Virus record (IMG/VR): IMGVR_UViG_3300037248_000024 | Coordinates: 34,051 to 98,050 of that record | From: a virus | Direction: 5' to 3' (one strand) | DNA length: 64,000 bases | Shown: positions 36,053 through 51,302 of the stretch, piece by piece | Numbering within the stretch: position 1 is the first letter of the stretch | How the letters are laid out: every line of letters begins with the position of its first letter | The notes under the pieces: generated by a model | The model's input: only the letters and a program-made list of their open reading frames with translations | Told to the model about the DNA's origin: nothing | Database searches by the model: none | Made by a program: the position numbers and the translations under genes

Positions 36053-36062
36053 TGGGCGGGGG

Positions 36063-36090: not shown

Positions 36091-36096
36091 TGCCTC

Positions 36097-36255: not shown

Positions 36256-36256
36256 A

Positions 36257-37225
36257 GTGGCCTACCGCCGAGAAGGAGGTATATACTGCATTCGACATAC
36301 GGACGGTCGTTCTTATGTTGGGTCGGCAGTTTCCTTTACCCGTAGATGGTACTCTCATCGCCGTGAACTTAATCGCGGCACTCATCATTCTAAAAAACTA
36401 CAACACGCCTGGACAAAATATGGTTCTGAAGCGTTTTCATTCATTATTTTAGAGGCGGTGGAAGATCGTGCTAACCTTCTGGTCCGTGAACAATTTTGGA
36501 TTGACCATCTGAAATCTGCCAGCCGCAGCGGCCTGAATATGTGTCCAAATTCTCGTAGCCAACTTGGTATGCGACATTCGGAAGACGCCAAGCGACGGAT
36601 AGGGGAAAAAGGTCTCGGTCGAAAAATGAGCGCGGAAAGCAGGCGAAAATTAAGTGATAGCAAAAAAGGTATAAGACCAAGCGCCGCGACAATTGAAAAA
36701 ATGAGAATCCGAATGTTAGGTCACATTCGGTCTCCTGAATCCCGCGCAAAGGGGGCGGCCTCTAACCGGGGCCGCATCACGCCGCCAGAGGTGCGCGCTA
36801 AACAGAGCGCGGCCAAGATCGGGAAGAAAGCAACTCCAGAGCATCGTGAAAATGTCAGACGTGCCCGATTGGGTGTCGGTCTTTCCGAGGCGGCAAAAAA
36901 GAAACTTAGCTTGGCTAACAAAGGCCGAGTTCATACAGCGGAAGCGCGTGCGAAAATTAGCGCCGGAAAGATCGGAAAGCCACGTAGCGCAGAAGCCAGG
37001 GCTAAACAAAGTGCCTCGCGAATGGGTATAAAATTGAGTATAGAAACACGTTCTAAGATGAGTGTCGCTCAGACTGGTCGTAAACATACGCCAGAGACGC
37101 GTGCAAAAATTGGCGCCGCTCATAAAGGTCGTAAACACAGCCCCGAGATGATCGCAAAATATATCGTCACTCGCGTTCGAAACAATCGTATCCGAGCGAT
37201 GCAACAGGAGAACATCCATGCCTGA
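36257..37225 (+). CDS. GIY-YIG homing endonuclease with NUMOD3 repeats, 322 aa
   Basis: GIY at residues 8-10 and YVG at 20-22 start the GIY-YIG nuclease domain, with REQFWIDHL supplying the conserved Glu. After residue about 95, repeated R-H-S/T-x-E-A/T-R-x-K-I-S/G-x-A/S-x-x-G-x-K-blocks (about eight) are NUMOD3 DNA-binding motifs. This is the classic phage homing nuclease architecture. GTG start 36257, 2 nt after the RHH stop; AT-rich relative to neighbours. Confidence 0.88.
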   Translation: MAYRREGGIYCIRHTDGRSYVGSAVSFTRRWYSHRRELNRGTHHSKKLQHAWTKYGSEAFSFIILEAVEDRANLLVREQFWIDHLKSASRSGLNMCPNSRSQLGMRHSEDAKRRIGEKGLGRKMSAESRRKLSDSKKGIRPSAATIEKMRIRMLGHIRSPESRAKGAASNRGRITPPEVRAKQSAAKIGKKATPEHRENVRRARLGVGLSEAAKKKLSLANKGRVHTAEARAKISAGKIGKPRSAEARAKQSASRMGIKLSIETRSKMSVAQTGRKHTPETRAKIGAAHKGRKHSPEMIAKYIVTRVRNNRIRAMQQENIHA

Positions 37226-38177
37226 CGGAACAACGAATGCGCCCCGCGCACGCCGCAGCAAACTTCTCGCGGTCCCCCCTGAATCGATCCAACCAAAGCG
37301 TCCGAAGTTTCTGATTTATGGACCGCCAGGAGTGGGGAAAAGCTGGGTCGCCGCAGACTATCCATCGTGCTACTACATAGATACGGAGGGCGGCGCTGAT
37401 ATGGATCAGTACCAAGCAAAGTTACGCGCATCTGGCGGCGTCTACCTTGGACCAGGTGAAGGATCACTTGATTTTGATGTGGTTATTGACCAAATGAAAG
37501 CCTTGGCCGAAGAAAATCATCCATACCGCACCGTCGTGATTGATTCCATTTCCAAATTGTGGAATGTGGCTCTCACAGATGAACAAGAGGCTCTCGGCGA
37601 CAAGGATGCTTTTGGGGCTTATAAAAAGCTGCCGACTCGTAAATTTGCCTCTTTGCTGAAATGGGTAAATCGCCTCGACCTCAATGTTATTTTCATCGCG
37701 CATCAGAAAGAAATCTGGGGCCTGAACGACAAAAAGCAACGCGAGGTCATTGGGTATGGTGCGGACGCGCAAGATAAATTGGAATACGATCTCCATCTCG
37801 TGTTGCGCATTGCCAAGATAGGACCATCGCGTTACGCCTATATTGGTAAGTCTCGGCTTCCCAGTTTCCCAGAGGGCGAACGGTTCAACTGGTCGTACGC
37901 AGACTTCGCCGATCGTTATGGAAAAGATGTCATTGAAAAAGAAGCGGTTCCGCTCGATCTGGCGACACCGGAGCAACTCACAGAACTTAACCGCTTATTG
38001 AGCTTCGTTAAGATGCCCGACGATTGGGAGGCTAAAGTGTTCAAAGTCGCTGGTATCGAAGCATGGGAAGAAATCGACGCCACGAAAATCGCTGCCATCA
38101 TCGACATGCTGAAAAAGCGAATCAATGGAGGTGGTGGAAACGAAGAAGACGGTGCGGCGACCGCCAAAGCGACGTGA
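37218..38177 (+). CDS. Sak4-like RecA-fold recombination ATPase, 319 aa
   Basis: Walker A GPPGVGKS at 35-42 and Walker B VVIDSIS around residue 110, with YYIDTEGGADM and AHQKEIWGLN between and after, fit the AAA_24/Sak4 type of phage recombinase ATPases that assist single-strand annealing. It is followed by an SSB-like gene (38404), the usual Sak4 partner. The C terminus (QLTELNRLLSFVKMPDDWEA) is a conserved tail in these proteins. Confidence 0.85.
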   Translation: MPDGTTNAPRARRSKLLAVPPESIQPKRPKFLIYGPPGVGKSWVAADYPSCYYIDTEGGADMDQYQAKLRASGGVYLGPGEGSLDFDVVIDQMKALAEENHPYRTVVIDSISKLWNVALTDEQEALGDKDAFGAYKKLPTRKFASLLKWVNRLDLNVIFIAHQKEIWGLNDKKQREVIGYGADAQDKLEYDLHLVLRIAKIGPSRYAYIGKSRLPSFPEGERFNWSYADFADRYGKDVIEKEAVPLDLATPEQLTELNRLLSFVKMPDDWEAKVFKVAGIEAWEEIDATKIAAIIDMLKKRINGGGGNEEDGAATAKAT

Positions 38178-38407
38178 AATTCATCCCACTACCATCGTCA
38201 TCTCCGCGCTCGTTACGCCGGGACAGGATTGACGGCGACCCTCCCGTTACGTTGGAACTGGTCTATGACCCCAGAGACGGCAAGAAATATCTATCTCTTG
38301 GGGTTGGAGATAGGGCGGTACGGCGATCGTGGCTGTCCGTAAATGCAGTAACCGGACTATCCAAAAGTGTGTTGTCAATGTTGAAAGAAATGGAGAAAAC
38401 CACATGA
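38174..38407 (+). CDS. hypothetical protein, 77 aa
   Basis: GTG start overlapping the ATPase stop. Beta-rich middle (PVTLELVYDPRDGKKYLSLG) with a basic C-terminal helix. Sits between the recombinase and the SSB-like gene. Not recognised. Confidence 0.6.
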   Translation: MKFIPLPSSSPRSLRRDRIDGDPPVTLELVYDPRDGKKYLSLGVGDRAVRRSWLSVNAVTGLSKSVLSMLKEMEKTT

Positions 38408-38937
38408 GACTCGAAAAAACCATCACCAAGGAAGAAGCCGACGCTGGCGGCGGATTTAAGCCGTGGCCCGACGGGACATACGACTTTGAAATCAAGGAGG
38501 CCGCCGATGATGTCAGTAAGGCTGGAAATTCCCAGATCAAGCTGACATTGTGGGTCTATGACGATGAAGGTCATCGGCGCATGATTTTCGACTATCTCGG
38601 AGCCAGTGAGGCCGGGCAATTCAAGGTTCGTCATTTCTGCGAATCCATCGGAATGATTCGGCAGTATGAAGAAGGAAATCTGGAACCCGACGAGATGGAA
38701 GGGAAGACCGGACGCGTACGGCTGGGATATAAAAAAGCCCAGGGGGACTACCCAGAAGGCAATCAGGTGCGCGACTATGTTTCAGGTGGAGACGAAGCGC
38801 CGCGCGCCGCTCGCCCGGCGTCAGCATCGCGCGCAGCCGCTCCAGCCACTTCGCGTCCGGCATCGGCGCCGCGTGCTTCGCAAAGCACCGGGGCCATGAT
38901 CGACGATGACATTCCCTTTGCTCCTGAGTGGCGATGA
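38404..38937 (+). CDS. DUF669-type single-strand DNA-binding protein, 177 aa
   Basis: FKPWPDGTYDFEIKEAADD, NSQIKLTLWVYDDEGHRRMI and FCESIGMIRQYEEGNL match DUF669, a phage OB-fold protein used in place of SSB. The C-terminal tail carries MIDDDIPFAPEWR, the acidic D-D-D-I-P-F motif that in bacterial SSBs recruits partner proteins; here a few residues follow it. An Ala/Pro/Ser linker joins the two. Likely binds single-stranded DNA and recruits replication or recombination proteins. Confidence 0.85.
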   Translation: MRLEKTITKEEADAGGGFKPWPDGTYDFEIKEAADDVSKAGNSQIKLTLWVYDDEGHRRMIFDYLGASEAGQFKVRHFCESIGMIRQYEEGNLEPDEMEGKTGRVRLGYKKAQGDYPEGNQVRDYVSGGDEAPRAARPASASRAAAPATSRPASAPRASQSTGAMIDDDIPFAPEWR

Positions 38938-39173
38938 GTCTCCACACCCAACCCAACGTGGTCGAACTGAAACATGGTCGCGGATCAAATCGATCCGTGA
39001 TCCTGGTTCAGAAAGAACCGCCTCGGAAATGGCTGGCTCGTGTGAGGTGGTCGTCAGCAAAGAAGCTATGGTTGGTTACCAAAGGGGAGCCTCTCGCGTT
39101 GGGTAAGGTCGTCGCCTCCGCGCATGGTTTTGAAAGTGCGCGAGAGTTGGCGCATAAGATGGCGCTGTTGTGA
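38934..39173 (+). CDS. hypothetical protein, 79 aa
   Basis: ATGA overlap with the SSB-like gene. Basic, beta-rich (VILVQKEPPRKWLARVRWSS) with a helical end. Nucleic-acid binding is possible. Not recognised. Confidence 0.6.
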   Translation: MSLHTQPNVVELKHGRGSNRSVILVQKEPPRKWLARVRWSSAKKLWLVTKGEPLALGKVVASAHGFESARELAHKMALL

Positions 39174-39643
39174 TGCCCGCACCCTCTCCAAAACCAATCT
39201 TTACCCCACCGCAAACTCCACCTTCTCACACCGGCTCTCTATGGCTCAACCCAGACAAAACCATCGGAGGCATCATTTCCGATGTGTTCAATGAGCCGAT
39301 TCATTTCGTCGGAACCAAGGTTCCTGGAGAGGCGGAATATCGTGTGAGGGGTTGGCGTGGGGTAGGTCCGGAGTTTCGCCGTCTTCCCATTGAGGGGGCG
39401 CCGCGAGAAGATGGGTTGCCTGATGGCGCGCCATCCGCTCCCTGTAAAATTTGCGAAGGAAGATTATTTTGGCGAGCGTCCATAATTTCTGGGGGCGGCT
39501 CCGGACCATGGCGCTGTGCCACATGCGAACCCGCCGATTCCTCGCTTTGGCTCGACGGTTTGGCTGTTCCGCCATCGTCTAAAGCCACCACTTTGCAGCC
39601 CTCATCCAAACCAACGCCACCTAAAGAAGGCAGCCTCCTTTGA
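39173..39643 (+). CDS. hypothetical protein with zinc ribbon, 156 aa
   Basis: Central CKICEGRLFWRAS...WRCATCEP is a two-CxxC zinc ribbon, with Pro/Ser-rich flanks and IHFVGTKVPGEAEYRVRGWR upstream. ATG 39173 overlaps the previous stop (TGATG). The C terminus overlaps the helicase start. May be a DNA-binding adaptor; inferred. Confidence 0.65.
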   Translation: MPAPSPKPIFTPPQTPPSHTGSLWLNPDKTIGGIISDVFNEPIHFVGTKVPGEAEYRVRGWRGVGPEFRRLPIEGAPREDGLPDGAPSAPCKICEGRLFWRASIISGGGSGPWRCATCEPADSSLWLDGLAVPPSSKATTLQPSSKPTPPKEGSLL

Positions 39644-40944
39644 TCTCTCTTTCAGAAATCGAGCTAAACGCCGCACAACAAAAGGCAGAAAAAGAAATCG
39701 GCGCATCCATCGAAATGTCACGGCAGCATTTACTTACAGGTGATGCTGGAACGGGAAAGACGGTCCTCGTTCAAAAGATCGCCGTGAAGCAACAGGAACG
39801 TCGCAAAAAAATAGTCCTTACCGCGCCAACTCATAAAGCCGTCGCCGTCCTCGAACGCAAACTAAAAGCGGCTGGAATTGATATCCGGTGCCAAACCATC
39901 CATTCATTGCTTTCGCTTTGCCCCAAGGCGCAAGGTGATAAGCAGATATTCGTTCGTGCACCAAAAGCCAAACCGGTGCTGGAAGACATTATCGTTATAG
40001 ACGAATGCTCCATGCTCGACGCCTCCATGATGCAGCACATTGAACGGCATCTGTCTGGCCGAGCAGTTATTCTGTGTGGCGACGTTGGGCAGTTACCTCC
40101 AGTTGGTGAAAGGGAGTCGCGTTCGTTTTCTGTGATGCCGCGTAGCCACCTCCAAGAGGTCGTTCGACAGGCACAGGGGAATCCAATCATCGCCGCGTCC
40201 CAGATCATCAGGAAAAATCAAACCGATGGCAGCGGTGTCGTCGATTGGTCGTGGTGTAGGGAAGCAAGGGGAGAAGCAAATACACCCCTGGAAAATACCG
40301 GAGTCTTTACACCCCACAGAAGTGATGTAGACGCCTGGATCAGAAAGGGATTTACCTCAGAAGCGTTTCGTGCCGATCCTGATAATTTTCGCTATCTGGC
40401 CTGGACCAATGCGCGTGTGGCTGAAATCAACGCGAAGATCAGACGATGGATATATCCAGGAGAAGACCTGTCCACCCCGTTCATATCAGGGGAAACGGCA
40501 CTGCTTCGCTCACCATTGGTAATCGATAACCAAATCCTGATCGCGACCAATGAAGAAGTGAAGGTGCTTTCCATCCAAACCGGGGAGCAACTTGGTATCG
40601 CGACCTGGGAAATGAAGGTTGTGACAGAAAGTGGGATGGACCACAATATTCACTTGCCACGTGATTGGGATGGATATCGGATCGCTCTGGCTGAACTGGC
40701 GGATGCTGCCAAAGCTGATTCTTATTTGTGGGAGAACTATCACGATTTCAAAGCTGCTTTTATCAACGCGCAGCAATGTATGGCGCTGACCGTTCATTCG
40801 AGCCAGGGAAGCACCTTCACCTGGACCTACCTCGATATTCCCGATATCAGAAAACGGATTAAGGACAATCTACTTGAGGCCCAGCAGCTATTGCTGACGG
40901 GGGCAACTCGGCCAAGCGATGGGCTGGTGTTGGTGGGGGTTTGA
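39640..40944 (+). CDS. SF1 (RecD/Dda-like) helicase, 434 aa
   Basis: Walker A GDAGTGKT at 34-41, motif II VIDECSM around 119-125, motif III CGDVGQLPPVGE, and motif VI-like VHSSQGSTFTW...TGATRPSDGLVL complete an SF1B helicase similar to RecD2/Dda. It unwinds DNA 5' to 3' and probably drives recombination or fork restart. It starts with TTG 39640, overlapping the upstream gene. Confidence 0.88.
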   Translation: MISLSEIELNAAQQKAEKEIGASIEMSRQHLLTGDAGTGKTVLVQKIAVKQQERRKKIVLTAPTHKAVAVLERKLKAAGIDIRCQTIHSLLSLCPKAQGDKQIFVRAPKAKPVLEDIIVIDECSMLDASMMQHIERHLSGRAVILCGDVGQLPPVGERESRSFSVMPRSHLQEVVRQAQGNPIIAASQIIRKNQTDGSGVVDWSWCREARGEANTPLENTGVFTPHRSDVDAWIRKGFTSEAFRADPDNFRYLAWTNARVAEINAKIRRWIYPGEDLSTPFISGETALLRSPLVIDNQILIATNEEVKVLSIQTGEQLGIATWEMKVVTESGMDHNIHLPRDWDGYRIALAELADAAKADSYLWENYHDFKAAFINAQQCMALTVHSSQGSTFTWTYLDIPDIRKRIKDNLLEAQQLLLTGATRPSDGLVLVGV

Positions 40945-40969
40945 CGCGGCCTTACCAACTTGGTATATG
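40941..40969 (+). promoter_or_regulatory. sigma70-like promoter of gene 40999
   Basis: TTGACG (40941-40946, overlapping the helicase stop), 17-nt spacer, TATATG (40964-40969). Here the start codon is 58 nt downstream of the -35, leaving a leader of about 24 nt with AGGGGAG as ribosome site, so unlike the other RHH genes it is leadered. Confidence 0.5.
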
Positions 40970-40998
40970 TTGGTCATCAAGGGGAGAGGCGGCGACCC

Positions 40999-41169
40999 AT
41001 GGATGACGATAAGCGGCTTGAACAGGTCCATCTGCGCTTCCGCAAGGCGGTTCTGGACGCCGCCAAAGCTGATGCTGCCCGTAAGGGCCAACCGCTCACC
41101 ACCTGGTTCGAACGCCTTGTAGAGGCTTCAATGCCTCAGGAAACGCAAGATGCGGAGAGCGCACGATGA
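40999..41169 (+). CDS. small RHH/CopG-like protein, 56 aa
   Basis: QVHLRFRKAVLDAAKADAAR, then QPLTTWFERLVEASM fits a ribbon-helix-helix or CopG-type fold. ATG 40999 has GGGGAGAGG upstream. It heads the second part of the replication block, with the ExoX-like and VapE-like genes behind it. Confidence 0.65.
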   Translation: MDDDKRLEQVHLRFRKAVLDAAKADAARKGQPLTTWFERLVEASMPQETQDAESAR

Positions 41170-41933
41170 AAATCTCTGGACCAACTGACCCATCCGGCTC
41201 TCCTTTGCTACCTGAACCATCCGCCATCATCATCCCCTTTGGCAAACATAAGGGAAAGACTGTCGCGGAACTGCTGGCGACCGATCAGCCCTATGCGGAC
41301 TGGATCACGGCGCAGGGATGGGTGGCCGAGAGGTTCGCGGAACTCCACGCCGCTATTGTTACACGGAGCGCGGGGGCAGATGATACGCCGGAGCACAATG
41401 CGCTCCAGGCGCGATTTTTGGATGAAGGGTTTCGACGTGGATTTCTTTTGTTGTGCGCTAAGGATTTGAGAGAGAGAATTACTGAAGCGAAGCGTTTGCT
41501 TATGGACAGCGCAAATTATGTAATAAATCTGTTTGATCACCCGAAATATGGATGGGAGACTATTTCTCAGGCGCGCTACGATAATGCGAAGTCCATCCTG
41601 GAGAAAATCACATCAGGGGCTGTCCGTATAAAAAGCACTGTTCAATTTGAGGTTTCTGGAATTGATGTTTTTATTACATATGGAGGCGCATTGAGCAGTG
41701 AAATTGTTTCTCCAAAACGGATTTCCGTTGAGTTAAAACCGGCCCTCGGTGACGACTACCCATCTGTTATGCGTCAGATGCAGCGATTGCATTGCAGTCT
41801 CATAGTGGTCGGTCAATATACCGGGCGCGGCGTGTCTGAGCCTCAATTACGTCAGATGTTCGAGGCGAATGATTGTCAGTTGGTATTTGTCCAGGAAATC
41901 GAGGAGCGCATTCGCAACACGGCGACTCCGTAA
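41166..41933 (+). CDS. ExoX C-terminal/DUF3820-like nuclease, 255 aa
   Basis: IPFGKHKGKTVAELLATDQP is the DUF3820/ExoX-C motif that binds nucleic acid. In the C-terminal half, an ISVELKPALGDDYPSVMRQM region has an E-x-K pattern with a preceding acidic residue, like a PD-(D/E)XK nuclease core. The gene overlaps the RHH stop. It may process DNA ends for replication or recombination; enzyme activity is inferred. Confidence 0.6.
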   Translation: MKISGPTDPSGSPLLPEPSAIIIPFGKHKGKTVAELLATDQPYADWITAQGWVAERFAELHAAIVTRSAGADDTPEHNALQARFLDEGFRRGFLLLCAKDLRERITEAKRLLMDSANYVINLFDHPKYGWETISQARYDNAKSILEKITSGAVRIKSTVQFEVSGIDVFITYGGALSSEIVSPKRISVELKPALGDDYPSVMRQMQRLHCSLIVVGQYTGRGVSEPQLRQMFEANDCQLVFVQEIEERIRNTATP

Positions 41934-41937
41934 TTTT

Positions 41938-42198
41938 ATGTCCTTGCAGCCCTCCGTTTTCGCGGATGCGTTCCGGCGCCATGCCGTGCCAAAGATACGG
42001 CAGGTTATGATGGTGCGTGCTCATTTCGTGGGAATCGGTCTCTATGATTTTTCAGATGCCTACGCCGATGTGATGATTTATGCGGGCCAGCTTGGCGCAT
42101 TTTATCTTCCTGATGAGCATCTGGATGCACTCTATGATTGGGTAGCCGGATTGCTGACTGATATGGCCGCCGCTGTTGGTGAGGCGGCTGATGGCTGA
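41938..42198 (+). CDS. hypothetical protein, 86 aa
   Basis: Start MSLQPSVFADAF follows AAATTTT-like AT-rich spacer, no clear ribosome site; helical protein with VRAHFVGIGLYDFSDAYADV and a C-terminal amphipathic helix. The stop overlaps the VapE-like gene. Not recognised. Confidence 0.55.
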   Translation: MSLQPSVFADAFRRHAVPKIRQVMMVRAHFVGIGLYDFSDAYADVMIYAGQLGAFYLPDEHLDALYDWVAGLLTDMAAAVGEAADG

Positions 42199-43600
42199 GA
42201 ACTATTTTGACAATCCAGATGCGTCTCCAAAACGTCGCGCTCCCAGAAAAACCACACCTAAACCAGTTGCACCCAAAGCCAATGGCCACGCATCTCCGGG
42301 ACGTGTGGATTGGGTTCCCAACCAACATTGGCGGGAAGACCTCGCGCGTACGGAAGGAGGAAAGATTCTTCGCACCCTTAATAATGTATTGGTGGCGTTA
42401 CGGCAGGCGCCGCAGTGGAAAGATATGTTCGCGTGGAATCAGTTTTCCAGTCGTCTCATGGTCATGCGGCATTTACCCGGTACTAATAAAATTGAAGCCT
42501 CCGTTCCCCGAGAAATAACGGGTCCAGATGTATCCAATGTTACCGACTGGATGCAACATAATGGGATCATCGTCGCATCCCAGACCACGGAAGAGGGTAT
42601 TCGCGCGGTCGCGGATGAATTTTCATATCATCCCGTACGCGATTATCTGAATGGTCTCACCTGGGACAAGACGCCGAGGCTGGAAACGTGGTTGATCAAA
42701 CACCTCGGGGTAACTGATACCGCCCTTCATCGGGCGTTTGGTTCCCGTTGGATGATTGGCCTGGTCGCACGGATATTCGAGCCGGGTTGTCAACTTGATA
42801 CGGCGCTGATCCTGGAATCACGTCAAGGTCTTCGCAAGTCCACGGCGCTGCGGGTACTCGCCCAACCATGGTTTACCGATCATGTACCAGACCTATCATC
42901 AAAGGATGCGCTCGAACAACTCCAGGGAGTGTGGATCATTGAACTAGCCGAACTGAGTAGTTTTGGTCGCGTCGAAACGGCACGGATCAAATCATTCCTG
43001 AGTTCGAGGGACGACCGTTTTCGTCCCTCATTTGGTCGTTTCCCCGCCAATCATCCCCGTCAATGCGGTTTCGCCGGCACTGTCAATCCTGGCAGCAATG
43101 GGTATCTCCGTGATGAAACCGGCGCGCGCCGATTCTGGATCGTGGAGTGCGCCACCAACTGGAAACCGAACCAACAGGTTGACGTGGAAAAATTGACCGC
43201 CGCTCGTGATCATCTCTGGGCTGAGGCGGTCTATCGTTATCGCGAAGGAAAACCATGGTGGCTGGACACCGCCGATTTGGAGGCGGGGCAGGAGGCCGCC
43301 GCAGAGGCGCGGCAAACCGATGACCCGCGTGAGCCAAAAATTCGGGATTATGTCGAAGGTCTGGCCTGGGTGAGAATGGATGGCATTCTGGGAGCGGAGT
43401 GTCTGAATATCCCACCGGAACGTTGGTCGATCGCGCTCAGGACAGAAATTGGCCATGTGATGAGCGCGCTCAAATGGAAACGGAAACGGAAACGAACAGA
43501 CGCGAAAAAGGCAGATAGCCCAATGGAGTGGCGGTACTACCCGCCTGGGGAAGAACGCGAAAGAGAGGCGCCCGTTTATCCCGATGAAATTTCTTTTTGA
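42191..43600 (+). CDS. VapE/VirE-like replication helicase, 469 aa
   Basis: Resembles virulence-associated protein E of phages and pathogenicity islands, a primase/helicase-like AAA+ protein. Walker A-like SRQGLRKST lies at about 210-218, with Arg in place of the usual Gly of GxGKST. Then WIIELAELSSF(G) (Walker B-like, ELAEL), RIKSFLSSRDDRFRPSFGR, and the arginine-finger region R...FWIVE. The gene ends just before the iteron array, which supports a role in opening or priming the origin. Confidence 0.85.
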   Translation: MAENYFDNPDASPKRRAPRKTTPKPVAPKANGHASPGRVDWVPNQHWREDLARTEGGKILRTLNNVLVALRQAPQWKDMFAWNQFSSRLMVMRHLPGTNKIEASVPREITGPDVSNVTDWMQHNGIIVASQTTEEGIRAVADEFSYHPVRDYLNGLTWDKTPRLETWLIKHLGVTDTALHRAFGSRWMIGLVARIFEPGCQLDTALILESRQGLRKSTALRVLAQPWFTDHVPDLSSKDALEQLQGVWIIELAELSSFGRVETARIKSFLSSRDDRFRPSFGRFPANHPRQCGFAGTVNPGSNGYLRDETGARRFWIVECATNWKPNQQVDVEKLTAARDHLWAEAVYRYREGKPWWLDTADLEAGQEAAAEARQTDDPREPKIRDYVEGLAWVRMDGILGAECLNIPPERWSIALRTEIGHVMSALKWKRKRKRTDAKKADSPMEWRYYPPGEEREREAPVYPDEISF

Positions 43601-43651
43601 TATTTCATCTAAAAAATAAACCAAATAATTTCAATATGTTAGTTTTTTTCT

Positions 43652-43740
43652 GTTCCTACTGTTCCTACCTGGAGTTAAATGGTAGGAACAAAAAGTTGTA
43701 GTGCCTACCTTGATGTTCCTACTGTACCCACTGTTCCTAC
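43652..43740 (+). repeat. iteron array, left half (GTTCCTAC repeats)
   Basis: GTTCCTAC copies at 43652, 43661, 43715 and 43733, variants GTGCCTAC at 43701 and GTACCCAC at 43724, and one inverted copy GTAGGAAC at 43682. Pairs 43652/43661 and 43715/43724/43733 repeat at a 9-bp spacing, with a T between copies. Confidence 0.85.
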
Positions 43741-43744
43741 CATT

Positions 43745-43758
43745 TTGTATATATACAA
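43745..43758. repeat. central AT palindrome
   Basis: TTGTATATATACAA is a perfect 14-bp palindrome between the two halves of the iteron array, the likely pivot or melting centre. Confidence 0.75.
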
Positions 43759-43806
43759 AGAAAGATGGAACGGTATGTAGAAAAAACACAGCCCTCTAAG
43801 GAAGTG

Positions 43807-43898
43807 GTAGGCACAGTAGGAACAGTAGGCACAATGTTGATTTCATTAGATGTTGTGGTAGGAACATTTAGTGCTGATGTTCCTACCTGGGTGGGAAC
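43807..43898 (-). repeat. iteron array, right half (inverted copies)
   Basis: GTAGGCAC at 43807 and 43825, GTAGGAAC at 43816 and 43858, GTTCCTAC (forward) at 43879 and GTGGGAAC at 43891. The first three repeat at 9 bp. The right half mainly reads in the opposite orientation to the left half, giving approximate dyad symmetry. Confidence 0.85.
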
Positions 43899-43944
43899 AT
43901 GCTATCCTTTATCCGCACCGCTTGCCTTCTGAGTGTCAGGATTG

Positions 43945-44235
43945 TCAGGTTTTCCCGTTAGTCAGCCCCACCGCCTCCCGCAACGCCTCCACCACCCGAG
44001 CCCCCTGCGTCACCGCCCGTGCATGAAGCACACGCCGGGCGGCTATCTCGACGGCCAGGAGACGGGCGATCTCGGGCAGTGCCAGCACGGCATCGGCCTG
44101 TGCCAGCGTCCGGTCGCGATCGGCGGCACATCCCGGGACACCGGCGTCGGCCAGCCGCAGTAGTTCGGCCCATGGGGTCGTGTCGGCGTGGGACGCGTTC
44201 CACAGAGCGGCGGCGAGGGGGGGGCGGAGGGTCAT
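43945..44235 (-). CDS. hypothetical protein, paralog of the 44232 C terminus, 96 aa
   Basis: LAAALWNASHADTTPWAELL, ADRDRTLAQADAVLALPEIA and RLLAVEIAARR match the last 85 residues of the next gene (AAVIWESGYADT..., RHRDRALRQADTVLALPSIK RLFAVEAAARP). Probably a tandem duplication with loss of the N-terminal zinc part. Function unknown. Confidence 0.7.
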   Translation of the reverse strand: MTLRPPLAAALWNASHADTTPWAELLRLADAGVPGCAADRDRTLAQADAVLALPEIARLLAVEIAARRVLHARAVTQGARVVEALREAVGLTNGKT

Positions 44236-44945
44236 TGCGATAACGCCCGACGCAAAGCTTCACGCTCCTCATAGGTCGTGATCTCGGCCACGCATGGTCG
44301 CGCCGCCGCTTCGACGGCGAACAACCGCTTGATGGATGGCAGCGCCAGAACGGTATCGGCCTGACGGAGGGCGCGGTCGCGATGTTGGCACCAGGCCGCG
44401 TGGTCTTCCGCGATTTCCAGGAGTTTCGGCCAGGTGATTCGCCCTGGGGCATCGGTATCGGCGTAACCGGACTCCCAGATCACGGCGGCGAGTTGGTCGC
44501 GGATGTCCGGTGTATCGGGACTGGCGCTGAGAATTCGCAGGGTCGCGGTGGTGATCCGCCGCAACCGCTCGATTTCGATCGCTCCAGCCCGGAGATACGC
44601 GGCCTGGAGGTGGTTGCCCGTGGCATCGTCCTCATCGGCGGCGTGGCGCATGTCATCGGGGAGGGTGGGTGTGATGAGGCCCAGAGCGCGCGAGATGGCC
44701 GCCAGTCTTGTCTCGATCCCATCACACGTCGCGCTCAACCGCTCGCACGCCTCGTCAACCGCCGCCATATCGCCGTCCAGGGCGGTCCGGGGCGGTTCGT
44801 GGGTGGAAGGGGCGGCGGGAGGGGTGGGGGGCTGTACGGGCGGGGGAGACGCGGTAACGGGGTCCATCGGACAAACCAGCGCATAACACCCGTAGTGGTC
44901 ATACCGCTCTCGCGTATCCCCGCAGGTTGAGCATATCTCTGTCAT
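44232..44945 (-). CDS. hypothetical protein with N-terminal zinc knuckle, 237 aa
   Basis: CSTCGDTRERYDHYGCYALVC is a zinc-binding knuckle, then a Pro-rich linker, then a helical domain with a Glu/Arg heptad (EIERLRRITTATLRILSASP) and a C-terminal half shared with the 43945 gene. ATG 44945 has ATGGAGTAACCG as ribosome site. Function unknown; it may be regulatory. Confidence 0.7.
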   Translation of the reverse strand: MTEICSTCGDTRERYDHYGCYALVCPMDPVTASPPPVQPPTPPAAPSTHEPPRTALDGDMAAVDEACERLSATCDGIETRLAAISRALGLITPTLPDDMRHAADEDDATGNHLQAAYLRAGAIEIERLRRITTATLRILSASPDTPDIRDQLAAVIWESGYADTDAPGRITWPKLLEIAEDHAAWCQHRDRALRQADTVLALPSIKRLFAVEAAARPCVAEITTYEEREALRRALSQ

Positions 44946-44963
44946 CGGTTACTCCATTCGTTG

Positions 44964-44992
44964 TTGACATCCGCCGTCCATCGTCCGTAAAT
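44964..44992 (+). promoter_or_regulatory. promoter of the candidate small RNA
   Basis: TTGACA (44964-44969), 17-nt spacer, GTAAAT (44987-44992). Predicted start near 44999. The promoter points against all neighbouring genes, which are on the minus strand. The same -10 GTAAAT follows another TTGAC box at 58417. Confidence 0.5.
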
Positions 44993-44998
44993 CCAACT

Positions 44999-45078
44999 TC
45001 CTGGTTTTCCAGGTCGTTTCCTTCTCAACGATCGCCCAACTCAGCGGCGTCTCGCCTCACGGTGGGGCGCCGCTTTTT
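44999..45078 (+). ncRNA. candidate small RNA with terminator
   Basis: About 80 nt. Hairpin 1: CCTGG (45000-45004), loop TTTT, CCAGG (45009-45013). Hairpin 2: AGCGGCG (45043-45049) with CGCCGCT (45068-45074), followed by TTTTT (45074-45078), a rho-independent terminator. No ORF inside. It is antisense only to intergenic space. Function unknown. Confidence 0.5.
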
Positions 45079-45087
45079 GGTGGTCGC

Positions 45088-45267
45088 TCACCCCGCCCAC
45101 CACACGCACAGCCGGATCGTCCCGAGCAGCACCGCGTCACGGCAGGCATCGCGGATGATATCGCGAGGGGCCAGGGCGAACGGCTTCGTCGGGCCGAAAC
45201 CGAACCGCAGTCCGTCCAACGCGCGCCAGAGGACCCAGATGAAAATCATGATCACGGTGAGGGTCAT
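45088..45267 (-). CDS. small membrane protein, 59 aa
   Basis: Start MTLTVIMIFIWVLWRAL, a hydrophobic helix with basic end; a second weakly hydrophobic part (AVLLGTIRLCVWWAG) at the C terminus. Coupled to the upstream gene. Function unknown. Confidence 0.55.
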   Translation of the reverse strand: MTLTVIMIFIWVLWRALDGLRFGFGPTKPFALAPRDIIRDACRDAVLLGTIRLCVWWAG

Positions 45268-45662
45268 GGTGTTGGCTCCCGCGCTTCCGCCATGCACCGC
45301 CGCAATGCGTCGGCCAGCGCTTTCAGTCCATCCGCCGTGTGGACGTGATACAGGCCGGTCGCGAATCCCTTGTTCTGATCGAGCGGAGACGGGCAGGTGC
45401 AATTCCCATCTACCCGGACATCATTGCCGTGGGTCTCGTGCAGGGCGTTCGCGTAACGCGGCGGCAGGCCAGGGCCAGACGCGATCCAGTAATACCAGGC
45501 GCGTCGAAAGGTCCAGGGTCCGAGTTGACCAACAATCACGGTTCGCATCTGAGGGTGACTGGTTCTGAACCATTCGCCGACGTTGACGGACTCGATGCCG
45601 GCGGTGGTCAGTTCGGCGCTGATTTCATCATCGGCATCGGCGCGGCGGGCGTAGTTTTTCAT
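45264..45662 (-). CDS. hypothetical protein, 132 aa
   Basis: ATG 45662 follows GAAAGGACTCAACACC. Contains FRRAWYYWIASGPGLPPRYA and a single Cys pair (NCTCPSPL), then HVHTADGLKALADALR. Not recognised. Confidence 0.6.
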   Translation of the reverse strand: MKNYARRADADDEISAELTTAGIESVNVGEWFRTSHPQMRTVIVGQLGPWTFRRAWYYWIASGPGLPPRYANALHETHGNDVRVDGNCTCPSPLDQNKGFATGLYHVHTADGLKALADALRRCMAEAREPTP

Positions 45663-45895
45663 GGTGTTGAGTCCTTTCGTGGGGTCAGTGCGTCTCGGCC
45701 TTCTGTCGTGATGCGCCACAAGCCACGCCTTCCAAGCCGGGCGACGAAGCCCTTGCGATGCAGGCGCCCAAGAATGGCGGCGCCGCGGTAAATCGCACCA
45801 CAGGCATCTGGCAGGATCGCCAGACCGATCCGGTACGAGGACGTACCCATGGAGGTATCAAGCAACGACAAAGCGGTTCTCTCGGCGGGGCTCAC
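45659..45895 (-). CDS. winged-helix-like regulator, 78 aa
   Basis: GTG 45895 overlaps the upstream stop (GTGA). ILGRLHRKGFVARLGRRGLW, then RITTEGRDAL is the strand/wing part of a winged helix, as in MarR/PadR-type small regulators, with the preceding helices GLAILPDACGAIYRGAAIL. DNA binding is inferred. Confidence 0.6.
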   Translation of the reverse strand: MSPAERTALSLLDTSMGTSSYRIGLAILPDACGAIYRGAAILGRLHRKGFVARLGRRGLWRITTEGRDALTPRKDSTP

Positions 45896-46128
45896 TCCGG
45901 CAATCCTCTCAACTTCTCCAGACTCACCCGCCCGGCACCGCCGATCGCGGTCCAGGCGCGTTGGGCGTAATAGGATAAGCCGGGCGACCAACCTCCTCCG
46001 GCGTCGATGCTTCGTTCGGCATGACGGAGGATCGGCTTAGAGGTCGCCGCGCGATATCCGGCCTGTTCCAGTTCCGCCCGATACGCGGCGAGGAATTGCG
46101 TCCTCGTGGGTGGTTCAGCCGAGGTCAT
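45892..46128 (-). CDS. hypothetical protein, 78 aa
   Basis: Helical, basic, with YRAELEQAGYRAATSKPILR and YYAQRAWTAIGGAGRVSLEK. Coupled to both neighbours. Not recognised. Confidence 0.6.
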   Translation of the reverse strand: MTSAEPPTRTQFLAAYRAELEQAGYRAATSKPILRHAERSIDAGGGWSPGLSYYAQRAWTAIGGAGRVSLEKLRGLPE

Positions 46129-46319
46129 GGTGCCGCTTTCAGATAATCTGGGTGGTAGGACGAGGAAGACTTATTTTCGCCCCACCGAACCCACACACAC
46201 CCGTTGGATTTTGTTCCAGTTACAACGCCGATCTGGCCATGGGTCCGCCGAATGCTAAAAGATCGCCCGGCTTCGTTAAGTTGAACCCGGTCATTTTTAT
46301 GGAAAGTTTTGCCTGTCAT
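46125..46319 (-). CDS. small KOW/SH3-like protein, 64 aa
   Basis: NDRVQLNEAGRSFSIRRTHG, then IGVVTGTKSNGCVWVRWGEN is a beta-barrel of the KOW/SH3-like type. Such small proteins bind nucleic acids or ribosomes. Start overlaps the neighbour's stop. Confidence 0.6.
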   Translation of the reverse strand: MTGKTFHKNDRVQLNEAGRSFSIRRTHGQIGVVTGTKSNGCVWVRWGENKSSSSYHPDYLKAAP

Positions 46320-46468
46320 TGGTTAACCCCCGCCGCGATCAGAATTGCGCCGGAGATCATGAACCCCGCGGCGGCGATGGCACGCTGCACGTCCTGACCA
46401 CGAATGCCGATAACACAACTTCCGAGGGACAGCATCGCGGTTCCCACGATCAGACAGGCGGTGTGCAT
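46316..46468 (-). CDS. small membrane protein, 50 aa
   Basis: Two hydrophobic helices (CLIVGTAMLSLGSCVIGI, AGFMISGAILIAAGV). ATG 46468 overlaps the upstream stop (TGATG). Function unknown. Confidence 0.55.
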   Translation of the reverse strand: MHTACLIVGTAMLSLGSCVIGIRGQDVQRAIAAAGFMISGAILIAAGVNQ

Positions 46469-46905
46469 CACGCGTCTCCTTCTGATTGATACCAACTCCA
46501 GAACGAAGTATGCCTGGCTCTTTCAGAAGCGGTGAAATTGAAAACATCAGGAACGGCCCGGTACGATGCGATCGCCTTAACGAGGGAGGTGGGCGGCGAT
46601 CTATCGATGACGACGCTGATACCGCAATGGCCATCACCGCCGTTCCAGGTCGAGATGATCGATGACTTTAGCCTGGCGGCAACAGCCTTTGCACGGCGCC
46701 GGTGTGTTTTCGCTGATGCCGTGTAAGAATGCTTGTTTCCATAAATCAGTATTAAAGTGCCTCCGCCGCTCGGCACTACCGTTACCAGGATATCTCCTGT
46801 TTTTTCGGACACGCCGTGGTGTTGCGCTATAGCGCCGTCCGGCATTCCTGGCCGTTCCAGCCGCGCGATTATTCTTGCCGCTGTCGTGGCGATCTTTTGA
46901 CTCAC
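46468..46905 (-). CDS. hypothetical protein, 145 aa
   Basis: Mixed, with a beta region (KTGDILVTVVPSGGGTLILI), a basic helix (KTHRRRAKAVAARLK) and a tail with FWSWYQSEGD. GTG/ATG overlaps. Not recognised. Confidence 0.6.
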   Translation of the reverse strand: MSQKIATTAARIIARLERPGMPDGAIAQHHGVSEKTGDILVTVVPSGGGTLILIYGNKHSYTASAKTHRRRAKAVAARLKSSIISTWNGGDGHCGISVVIDRSPPTSLVKAIASYRAVPDVFNFTASERARHTSFWSWYQSEGDA

Positions 46906-47180
46906 GAGGCGTCTCCCTCGATTTCGCGGAGCAACTTCCGTGCCGCCGTGATGGCCTCGCGGTATTTCTCGCCGGTATCAAGCCGAGCCCATGGTTCCAG
47001 CCAGGCGATCAGATCGGTTACCATATCCTGTAGCTTTGGGGCGGCGTGCATCAGGCGGGCGATGGATTCCAACTCTTTTATTGGAATCACCCGATGACCC
47101 GGAATAACGGTGGCACTCCATCCCTGCCAGTTCTCGGAATCAACGGCGTAGACCGTGCGCCCCTCTCGTTTCCATTCCAT
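46902..47180 (-). CDS. hypothetical protein, 92 aa
   Basis: TGATG overlap with its neighbour; the GTG at 47183 is an alternative start. WQGWSATVIPGHRVIPIKEL, a helix with MHAAPKLQDMVTDLIAWLEP, a pattern common in phage small proteins (LHAAPELLAALE...). Function unknown. Confidence 0.65.
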   Translation of the reverse strand: MEWKREGRTVYAVDSENWQGWSATVIPGHRVIPIKELESIARLMHAAPKLQDMVTDLIAWLEPWARLDTGEKYREAITAARKLLREIEGDAS

Positions 47181-47419
47181 CACGTCCCGATCTCCCTCAG
47201 CAACCGCCGCGCCTCGACAACATCCGGGTCCGCCACGCCATCCGGCGTCCTGTTCCGCTTGAGGATGGCGGTGAGGAGTCGGGCGGTGTCCTCGGCTTCA
47301 CTGGACTGATCGTGGCGAGGGACGGAGGCGACATACCTGCCATCAACAGTTAATATCCTGACCCAACCATCCAGTTTGTTCGGTGGCGCTGTTTTGTATG
47401 GCCCCGGTGTCGCGGTCAT
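47180..47419 (-). CDS. hypothetical protein, 79 aa
   Basis: MTATPGPYKTAPPNKLDGWV, then ILTVDGRYVASVPRHDQSSE and a helix ending RRLLREIG. This matches the common phage ASN-type small proteins with a beta hairpin and helix. A large frame extending upstream is a shadow. Function unknown. Confidence 0.6.
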   Translation of the reverse strand: MTATPGPYKTAPPNKLDGWVRILTVDGRYVASVPRHDQSSEAEDTARLLTAILKRNRTPDGVADPDVVEARRLLREIGT

Positions 47420-47592
47420 GAATCCCTCCCAAGGATCGCGAAACCGATCCCGGCGCCGGCGAACGTAAGCGCGACGCAACAGACATCCCTGATGCCGTCG
47501 TGGGTCGCGTGCGGCACGGTCATCACGATGCAGGCCATGAGCGCGGCGAGAGACAGCACGGCAGAGGCAATGATCTGGGCGAGCAATCGCAT
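47416..47592 (-). CDS. small membrane protein, 58 aa
   Basis: Two hydrophobic helices (LLAQIIASAVLSLAALMACI, CCVALTFAGAGIGFAILG) with HATHDG between. ATG overlaps the upstream stop. Function unknown. Confidence 0.55.
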   Translation of the reverse strand: MRLLAQIIASAVLSLAALMACIVMTVPHATHDGIRDVCCVALTFAGAGIGFAILGRDS

Positions 47593-48071
47593 CACAATTC
47601 CCCCGCCATTTCCACGATCGCCGCGAGGTCATCGTGCAGCAACTGCTGACCACCAATCGCCGTGATGAGTTGGTTTGATTTTGGAAACGACCGCGCCGCC
47701 AGATACGCGCGCACCCTCTCCAACGCTTCGGCGCGGGCGTGGCGGAGGTGCTCGGCGGCTTCACGGGCCAGTCGCTCGGCCTCTCGTCTCTCCGCCCCCA
47801 GCGCTTCTTCAGCGGTCTTCTGGACGGCCTGGAGACGCGCACACTCGAACGCCACTTCGTCCAGCCTGATTCGCGTTAAGGTCCAGCGCTCATGGCGCCT
47901 CCCATCGGATTTGCGGTAACGGTGACCGTCATCCAGGTCCACCATCGCTGGGGTTACCCTGACGACGCAGCGGATTTTATAGTCGTGGCCGACGCTGTAA
48001 TAATCGGTCACAACCTCATCCCCAACCCGGAGATCGGCCAGGGTGCGGGGGTTTGTTTCGGTGTCAGGCAT
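47592..48071 (-). CDS. hypothetical protein with coiled coil, 159 aa
   Basis: N-terminal KOW-like beta part (LADLRVGDEVVTDYYSVGHD, CVVRVTPAMVDLDDGHRYRK), then a long charged helix (KTAEEALGAERREAERLARE AAEHLRHARAEA) and a helical C terminus. Possibly nucleic-acid or ribosome related; inferred. Confidence 0.65.
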   Translation of the reverse strand: MPDTETNPRTLADLRVGDEVVTDYYSVGHDYKIRCVVRVTPAMVDLDDGHRYRKSDGRRHERWTLTRIRLDEVAFECARLQAVQKTAEEALGAERREAERLAREAAEHLRHARAEALERVRAYLAARSFPKSNQLITAIGGQQLLHDDLAAIVEMAGEL

Positions 48072-48331
48072 TACACCCTCCTCTCATAAGTCTCACACTC
48101 CGCCACGGGCCATAACGTCTTTCGTTCGATAGACCCCCACTCGGGAATCGGTTGGCGGCGCGTGGTTCCAAAACCGTGTCCCCAGTTCCACGCCGCCGGT
48201 GTCGGGATATGCGGCGGGGTCCACACGCACTTGCCCTGGCCATCGGGATGTAAGCGGCCGGCGGCGGTCTTGTGCCAGTCGGCGCGGGTGCAGGTGAGGC
48301 AGAGGTGGGCGGGGATGGCGTTCGCGCTCAC
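48071..48331 (-). CDS. hypothetical protein with CxxC, 86 aa
   Basis: GTG 48331 overlaps the preceding stop. CLTCTRADWHKTAAGRLHPD and CVWTPPHIPTPAAWNWG with aromatic-rich middle. May bind zinc. Not recognised. Confidence 0.6.
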   Translation of the reverse strand: MSANAIPAHLCLTCTRADWHKTAAGRLHPDGQGKCVWTPPHIPTPAAWNWGHGFGTTRRQPIPEWGSIERKTLWPVAECETYERRV

Positions 48332-48666
48332 GATCCGGTCGCCCTGGCGATGGCGGCGCGGGCCACCACGAGTTGCGGCGGGATGACCCACTCGTTTTTT
48401 AATGTCAGGTCGGTTTCGACGTAATCGACGAGCGCCGCGAGGGCTTCGGTCAGACCGGGCGCGGTTTCCTTTCCCGCCACGGAATCCTCTGGCGTTTCAA
48501 ACCCAAGCCGCCGCAGTGACGCGCGAAGGTCGTAAAGCGCCATGCGAGCCGGGTGGTTGTATTCGGCGGTGGCCAGATGACCACTCAGGGAAGCGGCGAC
48601 TTTGGCCAAGTGCTCCAGTTCGCGGATACGGTCGCCTCGGATGGCTTTTATGACTGGGAAACGCAT
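48328..48666 (-). CDS. hypothetical protein, 112 aa
   Basis: ATG 48666 with GGAGAGAAACG upstream. Helical, with a long acidic helix and FETPEDSVAGKETAPGLTEA. Overlaps the next gene's 3' end by 19 bp. Function unknown. Confidence 0.6.
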   Translation of the reverse strand: MRFPVIKAIRGDRIRELEHLAKVAASLSGHLATAEYNHPARMALYDLRASLRRLGFETPEDSVAGKETAPGLTEALAALVDYVETDLTLKNEWVIPPQLVVARAAIARATGS

Positions 48667-48824
48667 CGTTTCTCTCCTTTCGTCCGATCCACCGCGCACG
48701 CCTTCCATATCATCCTGGCGAGCGCTGGCAGCTTCTCCCAACCCGGACGCGGCGATCCGTCGTGGTAGGTCGGGTAGCGTTCGAGATCGGCTTCGTAGGC
48801 TTGTTGGCCGGTGGGGTATTTCAT
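48648..48824 (-). CDS. hypothetical protein, 58 aa
   Basis: MKYPTGQQAYEADLERYPTY then KLPALARMIWKACAVDRTKG: a small, mixed protein ending inside the next gene. Start ATG 48824 overlaps the previous stop. Not recognised. Confidence 0.5.
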   Translation of the reverse strand: MKYPTGQQAYEADLERYPTYHDGSPRPGWEKLPALARMIWKACAVDRTKGEKRCVSQS

Positions 48825-49006
48825 GACTTACGCTCCGGCAAAACGCCAACGCAGCCCGGTCCGTAAAGCGCTTCCAGTTCCGTCCGCAACTGGAGTGCGA
48901 TAACCCATGTCACGAACGGGAGGGTAACGTTCTGTTCGGTGAGTTCGCGGATCAGATTACAGGCTGTTTCGCAGATATTGTCTTTGAGTTGGTTGGGGGA
49001 TGCCAT
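48821..49006 (-). CDS. hypothetical protein, 61 aa
   Basis: All-helical acidic small protein (NICETACNLIRELTEQNVTL PFVTWVIALQLRTELEALYG). Ribosome site GAGAGAGACG ahead of ATG 49006. Not recognised. Confidence 0.6.
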   Translation of the reverse strand: MASPNQLKDNICETACNLIRELTEQNVTLPFVTWVIALQLRTELEALYGPGCVGVLPERKS

Positions 49007-49041
49007 CGTCTCTCTCCTGGCCGTCGTGGGGTGGTGGTGGG

Positions 49042-50508
49042 TCAGGCGGCTTTCTTGTCAGCATCCTTGCCGATCTCGGCTCTACCTGCGGCGGCGGTCT
49101 TGTTGAACGCCTCTCGCAACAGGTCGTCGCGCCAGACCAGGTGAACCGTGCCTTTCTTGAAGAAACGAATATCGAAGAATTCGCTTTGGCATTGGTTGTG
49201 GAATGGGCCGGCCTTCACATGGTAACCCAAGGATTGAAAGGTTGAACTAAGGGCGTGGCCGATCGTGTAGCAACTCTCAAACTTTCTGCCACTCAGGACG
49301 CACAGCACCCGGTCAAGATCGGCATAAAAATCGATCATCCCACCATAATACCCGGTGCTGAAACGCCCCCCATATTTGGCGTCATAGCTGCACCCGTAGG
49401 GAAAGATCGCCTTTTTGTTGACCTTGTAACTCGAATTCGTTTTCCACCCCTCGGTGTGGTGGACGTTATCGGCATGGTAACGCCGCAACGCATCAAACAC
49501 GTTGGAGACTGATTTCTCGAACAGACCTTGCCGTTGTGAGAAGATGTTTTCGAGCGTGCCGTAGACGTTGGTCGCGGTAAACGGGATATGCGCGTTGCGA
49601 TCGATGTCACGCTCCAGTTCTTCGCGCTGTAGCTTGTCGAGCCACTTGTGAAACTCGGCACGGGACAACGCGGCCTTCCAACATGCCTTGCGGTGCTTCT
49701 GTAGGAATTCAGCGCGGGCGTGGCCGAAGTCCCGGCAGGCTTCCTTCACGATATCCTGAAAGGCATCGATCCGCAGATCGTTCCCGCCCATATACACGGC
49801 GGCCTTACGGATATGGCGGAATGCTTCGATCATGTGAGTGTTGGCCTGCTCGTAATAGTGTTGCAGGTTGCCGAGTGTGTCACGCACGGCTGGCAGGTTG
49901 TCGGGGCTGGCTTCTCCGGCATGATCGCGTTCTCTGCCCTTGGTCTCCCACAACTCGGCGGCGTCTTCGGTTGTCACCTTGCGGAGGTGGACCAAAACGA
50001 CTTCAACGTCGGTGGGTCGCGCGGCCCGCTGAAATGGTCGGCCCAGGTCTTCGATTGAACCGTGCTCCGCGATGATCCCGGCGAGTCTCTGCCGTGCGGC
50101 GGAATGAGGATTGCGGATCGTTTCGGTGTTCAACAGACAGACGATCTCGCCGTTGTAGAGGAAATCCCACGCCTTCAACAGGTGGGCGTCGCCATTCGAA
50201 AACGGCGGGTTCATTATGATGGCATCATAATAACAAACACCGTCATAGCTTAACCAGTCGCCGCCGACGATCGGAAAACCTTTCTCGGTCAGGATCGCGC
50301 ACAGTTCGCCGGACGGTTCGATGCAATCGACCTGCGTACGCGACCGGCCGTAGCGATCGTCGCCACGTATCGCTTCCGCTATGTCCCCGCGGCCCGCGCT
50401 CGGATCGAGATAATATCTCGCGTCCTTGCTGATCTTGGCCAGCATTTTGTGAACGAGCGCCGCTGGTGTGGGGAAGAACTCATCTCCGAACATATTGCCT
50501 TGTTTCAT
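49042..50508 (-). CDS. DNA methyltransferase with DUF4942 C-terminal domain, 488 aa
   Basis: N-terminal Rossmann fold: FFPTPAALVHKML, SAM motif I DPSAGRGDIA (35-44), VDCIEPSGELCAIL, and catalytic NPPF at 100-103, an N6-adenine methyltransferase of the alpha/gamma order. The C-terminal 250 residues match DUF4942, a domain usually fused to such methylases. Likely modifies phage DNA, with the DUF4942 part contributing specificity. Ribosome site AAGGAATGAGAG. Confidence 0.88.
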   Translation of the reverse strand: MKQGNMFGDEFFPTPAALVHKMLAKISKDARYYLDPSAGRGDIAEAIRGDDRYGRSRTQVDCIEPSGELCAILTEKGFPIVGGDWLSYDGVCYYDAIIMNPPFSNGDAHLLKAWDFLYNGEIVCLLNTETIRNPHSAARQRLAGIIAEHGSIEDLGRPFQRAARPTDVEVVLVHLRKVTTEDAAELWETKGRERDHAGEASPDNLPAVRDTLGNLQHYYEQANTHMIEAFRHIRKAAVYMGGNDLRIDAFQDIVKEACRDFGHARAEFLQKHRKACWKAALSRAEFHKWLDKLQREELERDIDRNAHIPFTATNVYGTLENIFSQRQGLFEKSVSNVFDALRRYHADNVHHTEGWKTNSSYKVNKKAIFPYGCSYDAKYGGRFSTGYYGGMIDFYADLDRVLCVLSGRKFESCYTIGHALSSTFQSLGYHVKAGPFHNQCQSEFFDIRFFKKGTVHLVWRDDLLREAFNKTAAAGRAEIGKDADKKAA

Positions 50509-50554
50509 CTCTCATTCCTTCATCATCATGCGCCGCCGGAGCGGCGCGACTTCG

Positions 50555-50728: not shown

Positions 50729-50781
50729 CCTCATCTCTCCTTCATCGCGTGGTCAGGCGTCATCCGCGCCCCGTTATCTCG

Positions 50782-51030: not shown

Positions 51031-51063
51031 TCTTTGATCTCCTTTCATCGCGCCGATCAGGCG

Positions 51064-51276: not shown

Positions 51277-51302
51277 TCTCATCTCCCTCGATCGTGGCGG
51301 GT

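Follow-up and report, generated by a model that had tools for sequence, protein, structure and literature searches.

What is the function of the repeat-filled stretch at 43601-43944, a 344-bp interval that directly follows a vapE-like helicase gene in the 64,000 nucleotides of viral DNA analysed here (the window)? A first-pass annotation had named it a candidate phage origin beside VapE, and comparison with other elements supports that proposal. The stretch is very probably a phage replication origin of the SaPI/PICI type, at which VapE would serve as a self-loading AAA+ initiator assembled into two head-to-head hexamers. This reading of the sequence is preferred because arrays with differing letters and recurring geometry are located 3' of vapE in independent phages, because the predicted fold of the VapE protein best matches PriRep1, and because the known SaPI/PICI origins are found directly 3' of rep, with two iteron sets arranged around an AT-rich region.

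The features of the region are collected in Table 1. The motif GTNCCYAC occurs at 13 sites within 43652-43898, eight of them exactly GTTCCTAC, and at 21 sites across the whole window. When the 344 bp were shuffled 1000 times with dinucleotide composition preserved, 0.12 sites were found on average and at most 2. When 8-mers were counted de novo, GTTCCTAC was the commonest in the 344 bp, with 12 copies at one mismatch; the maximum for any 8-mer in 300 shuffles was 8. The array is also the densest in the window for any 8-mer that is not purely G+C. The sequence and coordinates of the region had been given correctly in the first-pass annotation. The array itself was borne out, and the original count of about 12 iterons is corrected to 13, of which the site at 43701 is an extra one off the mirror. 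The orientations of the sites, ++-++++ in the left set and ----+- in the right set, agree with the earlier description of a mostly forward left set and a mostly reversed right set, and the palindrome reported between the two sets is present.

Table 1. Positions of the vapE-like gene and of the features of the repeat array in the window
Feature	Position	Strand	Basis
vapE-like initiator helicase gene, 474 aa from TTG start; true start possibly further in	42176..43600	+	
Predicted C-terminal winged helix, residues about 385-455, proposed repeat reader	43328..43540	+	AF2
AT-rich flank (86% AT), least stable 50-mer of window	43600..43649	.	nearest-neighbour profile
Iteron L6, GTTCCTAC	43652..43659	+	GTNCCYAC site
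Iteron L5, GTTCCTAC	43661..43668	+	GTNCCYAC site
Iteron L4, GTTCCTAC, inverted, grid position 51	43682..43689	-	
Extra site, GTGCCTAC, off mirror grid	43701..43708	+	
Iteron L3, GTTCCTAC	43715..43722	+	
Iteron L2, GTACCCAC, variant	43724..43731	+	
Iteron L1, GTTCCTAC, innermost left	43733..43740	+	
AT-rich gap between half-arrays; proposed melting and loading site	43741..43806	.	
Palindrome TTGTATATATACAA inside gap	43745-43758		
Iteron R1, GTGCCTAC, innermost right	43807..43814	-	
Iteron R2, GTTCCTAC	43816..43823	-	
Iteron R3, GTGCCTAC	43825..43832	-	
Iteron R4, GTTCCTAC, grid position 51	43858..43865	-	
Iteron R5, GTTCCTAC, inverted, grid position 72	43879..43886	+	
Iteron R6, GTTCCCAC	43891..43898	-	

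The first site begins 52 bp past the vapE stop. To the right of the array, the reading frames are on the minus strand and end at 43945 and 43958; the two ORFs are 43945-44235 and 43958-44452, the second of which has no family match, and the right border of the array region is soft. A weak terminator-like hairpin at 43877-43900 is built from two repeats, with iteron R5 as its left arm. A search of the 98,050-bp record with the two-unit repeat pattern at up to two mismatches returned no second locus. No match was obtained by blastn of 43500-44000 against the phage collection or by an Rfam search, and a promoter scan found no promoter-like site at the array.

The roughly mirror-symmetric, bipartite design that had been claimed earlier is seen in the positions of the sites. 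A mirror partner within 1 bp about position 43770 was found for 10 of the 13 sites (p 0.005 against permuted spacings). With a tolerance of 3 bp, 12 of the 13 sites are paired (p 0.002), and at 2 bp the p value is 0.06. The same test applied to PWM-called sites gave p 0.30 for the window and has little power; the 13-site list was used instead. The departures from the mirror are two right-half sites, by orientation, and the site at 43701, which is off the grid.

A melting check had been suggested together with the original proposal. In the nearest-neighbour profile, both 50-mers of lowest stability in the window fall in 43600-43786: the AT-rich flank is first (-1.04 kcal/mol per step vs a window mean of -1.52), and 43737-43786, in the gap, is second. 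That the left flank is less stable than the gap counts against the origin reading. The gap is 67% AT compared with 55-56% in the half-arrays, and two repeat sets are found flanking an AT-rich region. The GC skew has no clear switch at 43.6 kb, a further point against an origin.

The gene that ends at 43600 encodes a VapE-like helicase, as had been annotated (PF05272, E 2e-75; matches to phrog_256/1313). In a sequence search of the PDB the protein matched 7pds with an E value of 4.7e-39, the molecule being labelled 'similar to D. nodosus vapE'. An AF2 model was obtained with a mean pLDDT of 87 from an alignment of 37 sequences. The top Foldseek matches to this model were all six chains of 7pds, PriRep1 with dsDNA (best E 7.7e-28), followed by NrS-1, the SaPI5 primase-helicase and the poxvirus D5/E5 helicases. 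PriRep1 of 7pds is taken here to be the SaPI1 initiator. No fused primase was detected on the VapE-like protein.

The predicted C-terminal winged helix consists of helices H385-393, H401-405 and H419-431 and strands E435-440 and E450-455, with pLDDT values mostly of 92-96. Its signature is common to the repeat-bearing VapE proteins and is nearly undetected by profile in the VapE proteins of loci L006-L032, a contrast that is weak on its own because the profile was trained on the repeat-bearing proteins. Among 31 VapE proteins, the similarity of the repeats tracks the identity of the C-terminal domain when the identity of the helicase core is controlled (partial Mantel 0.28, p 0.0005; Mantel tests are liberal when sequences are related). 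In the reverse test on the same 31 proteins, repeat similarity does not follow core identity once C-terminal identity is controlled. From these data and the predicted model, we infer that the C-terminal winged helix of VapE probably reads the 8-bp repeat.

Origins of this design have been described in satellite islands. The C-terminal domain of SaPI Rep recognises an origin that is located directly downstream of its own gene (PMC7581432). PICI origins contain an AT-rich region between two iteron sets, and rep-ori drives plasmid replication (PMC6092414). In SaPI origins, opposed repeats direct two hexamers head-to-head (PMC9894130). The systems compared with the window were PriRep1 (7pds), SaPI5 Rep (7ola), SaPIbov1 Rep (8tch) and the pri-rep-ori of EcCICFT073, and the comparison covered layout and fold. 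As in SaPI/PICI elements, the helicase gene of the window is followed directly by two repeat sets around an AT-rich region, and its product is predicted to belong to the same fold family as their Rep and to have a C-terminal DNA-binding domain. The window differs in its extra AT-rich flank on the gene side and in that a fused primase was not detected. It also differs from a small satellite island in that it comes from a record of at least 98 kb, in which terminase large subunit and portal genes are present; the origin is therefore described as PICI-like, and the element is not a PICI. Judged by sequence and predicted structure, the window fits the SaPI/PICI model in its anatomy and helicase fold. 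It would represent a known kind of origin in a new instance, a large tailed phage instead of a satellite island. The bipartite design, once called unusual, is so only among well-known plasmid origins and is otherwise the described SaPI/PICI design.

Similar arrays were sought beside other helicase genes. DNA-only scans of viral contigs and genomes with two or three repeats at 9-bp spacing gave clusters of at least four sites, and 39 of the 105 clusters in fetched loci are at the 3' end of a VapE gene, a few of these 39 being overlapping views of the window's own array. One 14,062-bp contig, L135 (IMGVR_UViG_3300043162_000027), is identical over its full length to window positions 42071-56132 and represents part of this virus under a separate record. 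A second kind of helicase, the DUF927/Cch-type primase-helicases, was found beside clusters at 31 loci, some with the Cch helix-turn-helix domain HTH_56. Single-orientation runs of 14-17 tandem copies of a 9-bp unit were observed in L184, L193, L195 and L201 (Prevotellaceae, Psychrobacter, Marinomonas); these look like minisatellites and not origins.

A repeat-blind test was made because pattern scans find only look-alikes of the window repeat. With two helicase-core peptides, 80 VapE loci were fetched (L226-L305), 76 of which have at least 700 bp downstream. An 8-mer array of at least nine copies is present within 900 bp 3' of vapE in 35 of the 76 loci, which are not independent because several of the 80 are closely related. 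Measured in the same way, no locus has such an array in the final 900 bp of the gene or in a 900-bp stretch further upstream (0/76 each); both of these controls are mostly coding DNA, and shuffles were used as a second control. About half of the 76 loci are without such an array within 900 bp. In L241 and L243, an array is found about 1.8 kb downstream of vapE, and in others of this group none was seen. The repeat seeds for L240 and L254 were dropped, as they had caught on a GC-rich repeat further down.

An array is also located 3' of vapE in all eight of the named phages examined, with 8-12 copies vs shuffle maxima of 4-6. These are Pseudomonas phage U5, Rhodobacter phage RcExplorer, Staphylococcus phage IPLA35, Enterococcus phage phiFL4A, Streptococcus satellite Javan257, Corynebacterium phage CL31, Hamiltonella phage APSE-8 and Paenibacillus phage AJG77. 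In phage U5, 11 TGTCCCAC sites are spaced at 18, 21, 34, 8, (99), 9, 8, 33, 12 and 18. None of the eight records has an origin annotated immediately 3' of vapE. In that of APSE-8 (L316, 957-1057), a putative origin is annotated 5' of vapE, while the repeat array is 3'. The letters of the repeat vary by lineage and include GTTCCTAC, TGTCCCAC, TGTCACCAAC, GTCCAACC, GTTCCAGT, GGTCCGGG, TGTACCCAGT and AGGTGCAC. The degenerate pattern GTNCCNAC was tried as a universal VapE-array motif and is wrong; other lineages have other letters or another repeat length. The search for repeats beside VapE homologs that the first-pass annotation had recommended returned arrays among the repeat-blind loci and in the named phages, with letters that vary by lineage. 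Its proposed refutation, relatives that keep vapE and lack the repeats, has an outcome that favours an origin in many close relatives but not across all 76 loci.

The spacing of the sites recurs across lineages in which the letters differ. Counted from the centre outward, the left half of the window array has sites at 0, 9, 18, 51, 72 and 81, with the extra site at 32, and the right half has sites at 0, 9, 18, 51, 72 and 84. The VapE half-array grid common to the lineages is 0, 9, 18, 52 (usually inverted), 72 and 82; that is, two or three sites at steps of 8-10 bp are followed by sites at about 52, 72 and 82. Half-arrays that start with pairs have the same grid shifted by about 9. For the test of the window, the grid was built without the GTTCCTAC group, and the site at 43701 was excluded from the left half. 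On this grid, derived from other repeats, the left half of the window ranked best of 10 and the right half best of 30 distinct spacing orders, the raw ranks being 2 of 20 and 2 of 60 because each order ties with its reverse. Of 31 VapE arrays, 27 have a gap with a higher AT content than either half-array.

These features can be combined in a mechanism. VapE, made from the gene directly upstream, would act as a self-loading AAA+ initiator helicase, and its C-terminal winged helix would read the 8-bp repeat. Next to the gap, each half-array would offer three repeats in 9-bp steps, with three more at about 51, 72 and 82 bp, and these six sites would suffice to gather one VapE hexamer, with one repeat per subunit. 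With the halves mirrored, two hexamers would face each other over the AT-rich gap; the duplex would melt there, and both hexamers would be loaded for bidirectional copying. The array with its symmetry and low stability, the helicase with its predicted winged helix, and the return of array and spacing next to vapE in other phages are what the analysis shows; repeat binding, the ratio of one repeat per subunit, melting, the start of replication and its bidirectionality are inferred.

Four other functions were considered for the array. In the first, the array is a regulatory or copy-control site at which VapE or another phage DNA-binding protein represses its own operon or titrates the initiator, and replication starts elsewhere. 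Plasmid iterons often serve in control as well, which lends this explanation some weight. However, no promoter-like site was found at the array, which lies 3' of vapE where reading frames converge, the repeat forms no second array in the record, and the mirror geometry, the AT-rich gap and the conserved spacing suit loading better than repression. A control site is improbable.

The alternative offered in the first-pass annotation, in which the ParB-like protein (29604-30515) would use the repeats as a centromere-like (parS) cluster, is poorly supported and very unlikely. The ParB-like protein is present (phrog_1033, E 7e-35, with a KorB domain), but an AAA_31-type ParA was not found in the record with the one Pfam model tried, arrays of the same geometry in other elements accompany vapE or DUF927 genes, and the sequence of the repeat follows the VapE C-terminal domain. 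No more probable is a DnaA-dependent origin served by a stand-alone DnaA-domain-IV protein, with VapE merely as the helicase. Bac_DnaA_C is matched inside the ORF at 28833-29249 (E 8.6e-25), and one near-box, TTATCCGCA, is present at 43909-43917 on the right edge of the array; however, the window has no excess of near-DnaA boxes (5 found vs 7.6 expected), and the repeat is unlike a DnaA box. Least probable is a converging-gene border at which module exchange left terminator-like hairpins and repeats with no role in replication: the sharp GC change (about 0.51 before 44 kb and 0.67 after) and the hairpin formed by two repeats would suit it, but constant spacing with changing letters is hard to explain unless the geometry is selected. 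None of the four explains the conserved spacing with changing letters.

The proposed origin was further compared with other known systems. In iteron plasmid origins of the RepA/RepE/TrfA type, direct repeats are accompanied by an AT-rich stretch, and the initiators are not helicases; the host helicase is loaded, often with DnaA. In the window, by contrast, the helicase itself would act as initiator, and DnaA boxes show no excess. The ori/crr of P4 alpha resembles the window in its 8-bp type 1 repeats, its 9-11 bp steps and its gaps of about 43 and about 20 bp, and crr is located just 3' of alpha as the window array is 3' of vapE. In P4, however, the sites are split between ori and crr, some 5 kb apart, whereas the window record has a single array. 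On the VapE grid the fit of P4 crr is weak (best of 12 distinct orders), and P4 ori was rejected as an instance of the same grid (36th of 60 spacing orders).

In the DUF927/Cch elements, GTNCCYAC arrays are found where the helicase gene ends or a short way 3' of it, several with the same half-array spacing; the arrays that fit the VapE grid are L158, L217 and one half of L219. The halves are reversed, with the triplets outside, giving ---+-- / ++-+++ compared with ++-+++ / ---+-- for VapE. Reversed-polarity GTNCCYAC loci include L158, L163, L185, L186, L187, L190, L191, L194, L202, L214, L215 and L217, among others, and the hosts of these elements include Pseudomonas, Azotobacter, Klebsiella and Fodinicurvata. 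The predicted fold of one DUF927 protein matches Cch (SCCmec, 5dgk) and SaPIbov1 Rep (8tch), and the predicted C-terminus of one likewise has helices and a beta hairpin at the end. Homology between the VapE and DUF927 C-terminal domains was not detectable by hhalign (0.7%), and HTH_56 has no match in the record; a shared C-terminal domain is not claimed. In L180, L196, L207 and L212 (Chromobacterium, Vogesella, Paludibacterium), two arrays are present, one that overlaps the DUF927 gene and a second, about 2 kb away, just 3' of it, an arrangement that recalls the split ori/crr of P4.

The wider result is that the spacing recurs across many VapE phages and several DUF927/Cch helicase elements, with the halves turned round in the latter. 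A broader interpretation is tentative, and we hold it at somewhat short of even confidence: a single grid of about six sites per half (0, 9, 18, 52, 72, 82), mirrored around a melting gap, may define a general class of bacterial self-loading origins. The grid would stay fixed under changing letters because it fits the shape of a hexameric helicase. This class would serve at least VapE and DUF927/Cch helicases with opposite polarity and be widespread among ordinary tailed phages, in contrast to a 2018 statement that confined it to satellite islands. To our knowledge of the open-access literature, a grid common to two helicase families with opposite polarity has not been described.

For VapE-type phages, of which hundreds of members have been sequenced (692 records match), a specific candidate origin is provided, and the SaPI/PICI origin plan would be widened from satellites to phages. 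The grid can serve as a simple signature by which such origins are found and an initiator is paired with its origin. It also bears on the head-to-head placement of two bacterial ring helicases on duplex DNA, a design that is better known from eukaryotic viruses and MCM.

Several further features of the window were recorded. A block of lower GC content at 34001-44000 (0.48-0.55 compared with 0.57-0.67 on either side) ends at the array, and the replication region has the look of a module that was acquired separately. A GIY-YIG/NUMOD3 homing endonuclease is encoded inside this module at 36257-37225. The stand-alone DnaA domain IV is carried by a short ORF of 138 aa located just before the ParB-like gene, and a small protein encoded at 30512-31204 matches PF02767 (E 6e-07), the central domain of the DNA polymerase III beta clamp. 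A loose cluster of GAATTCCG-like 8-mers, with up to seven in 330 bp, is present at 5151-5681.
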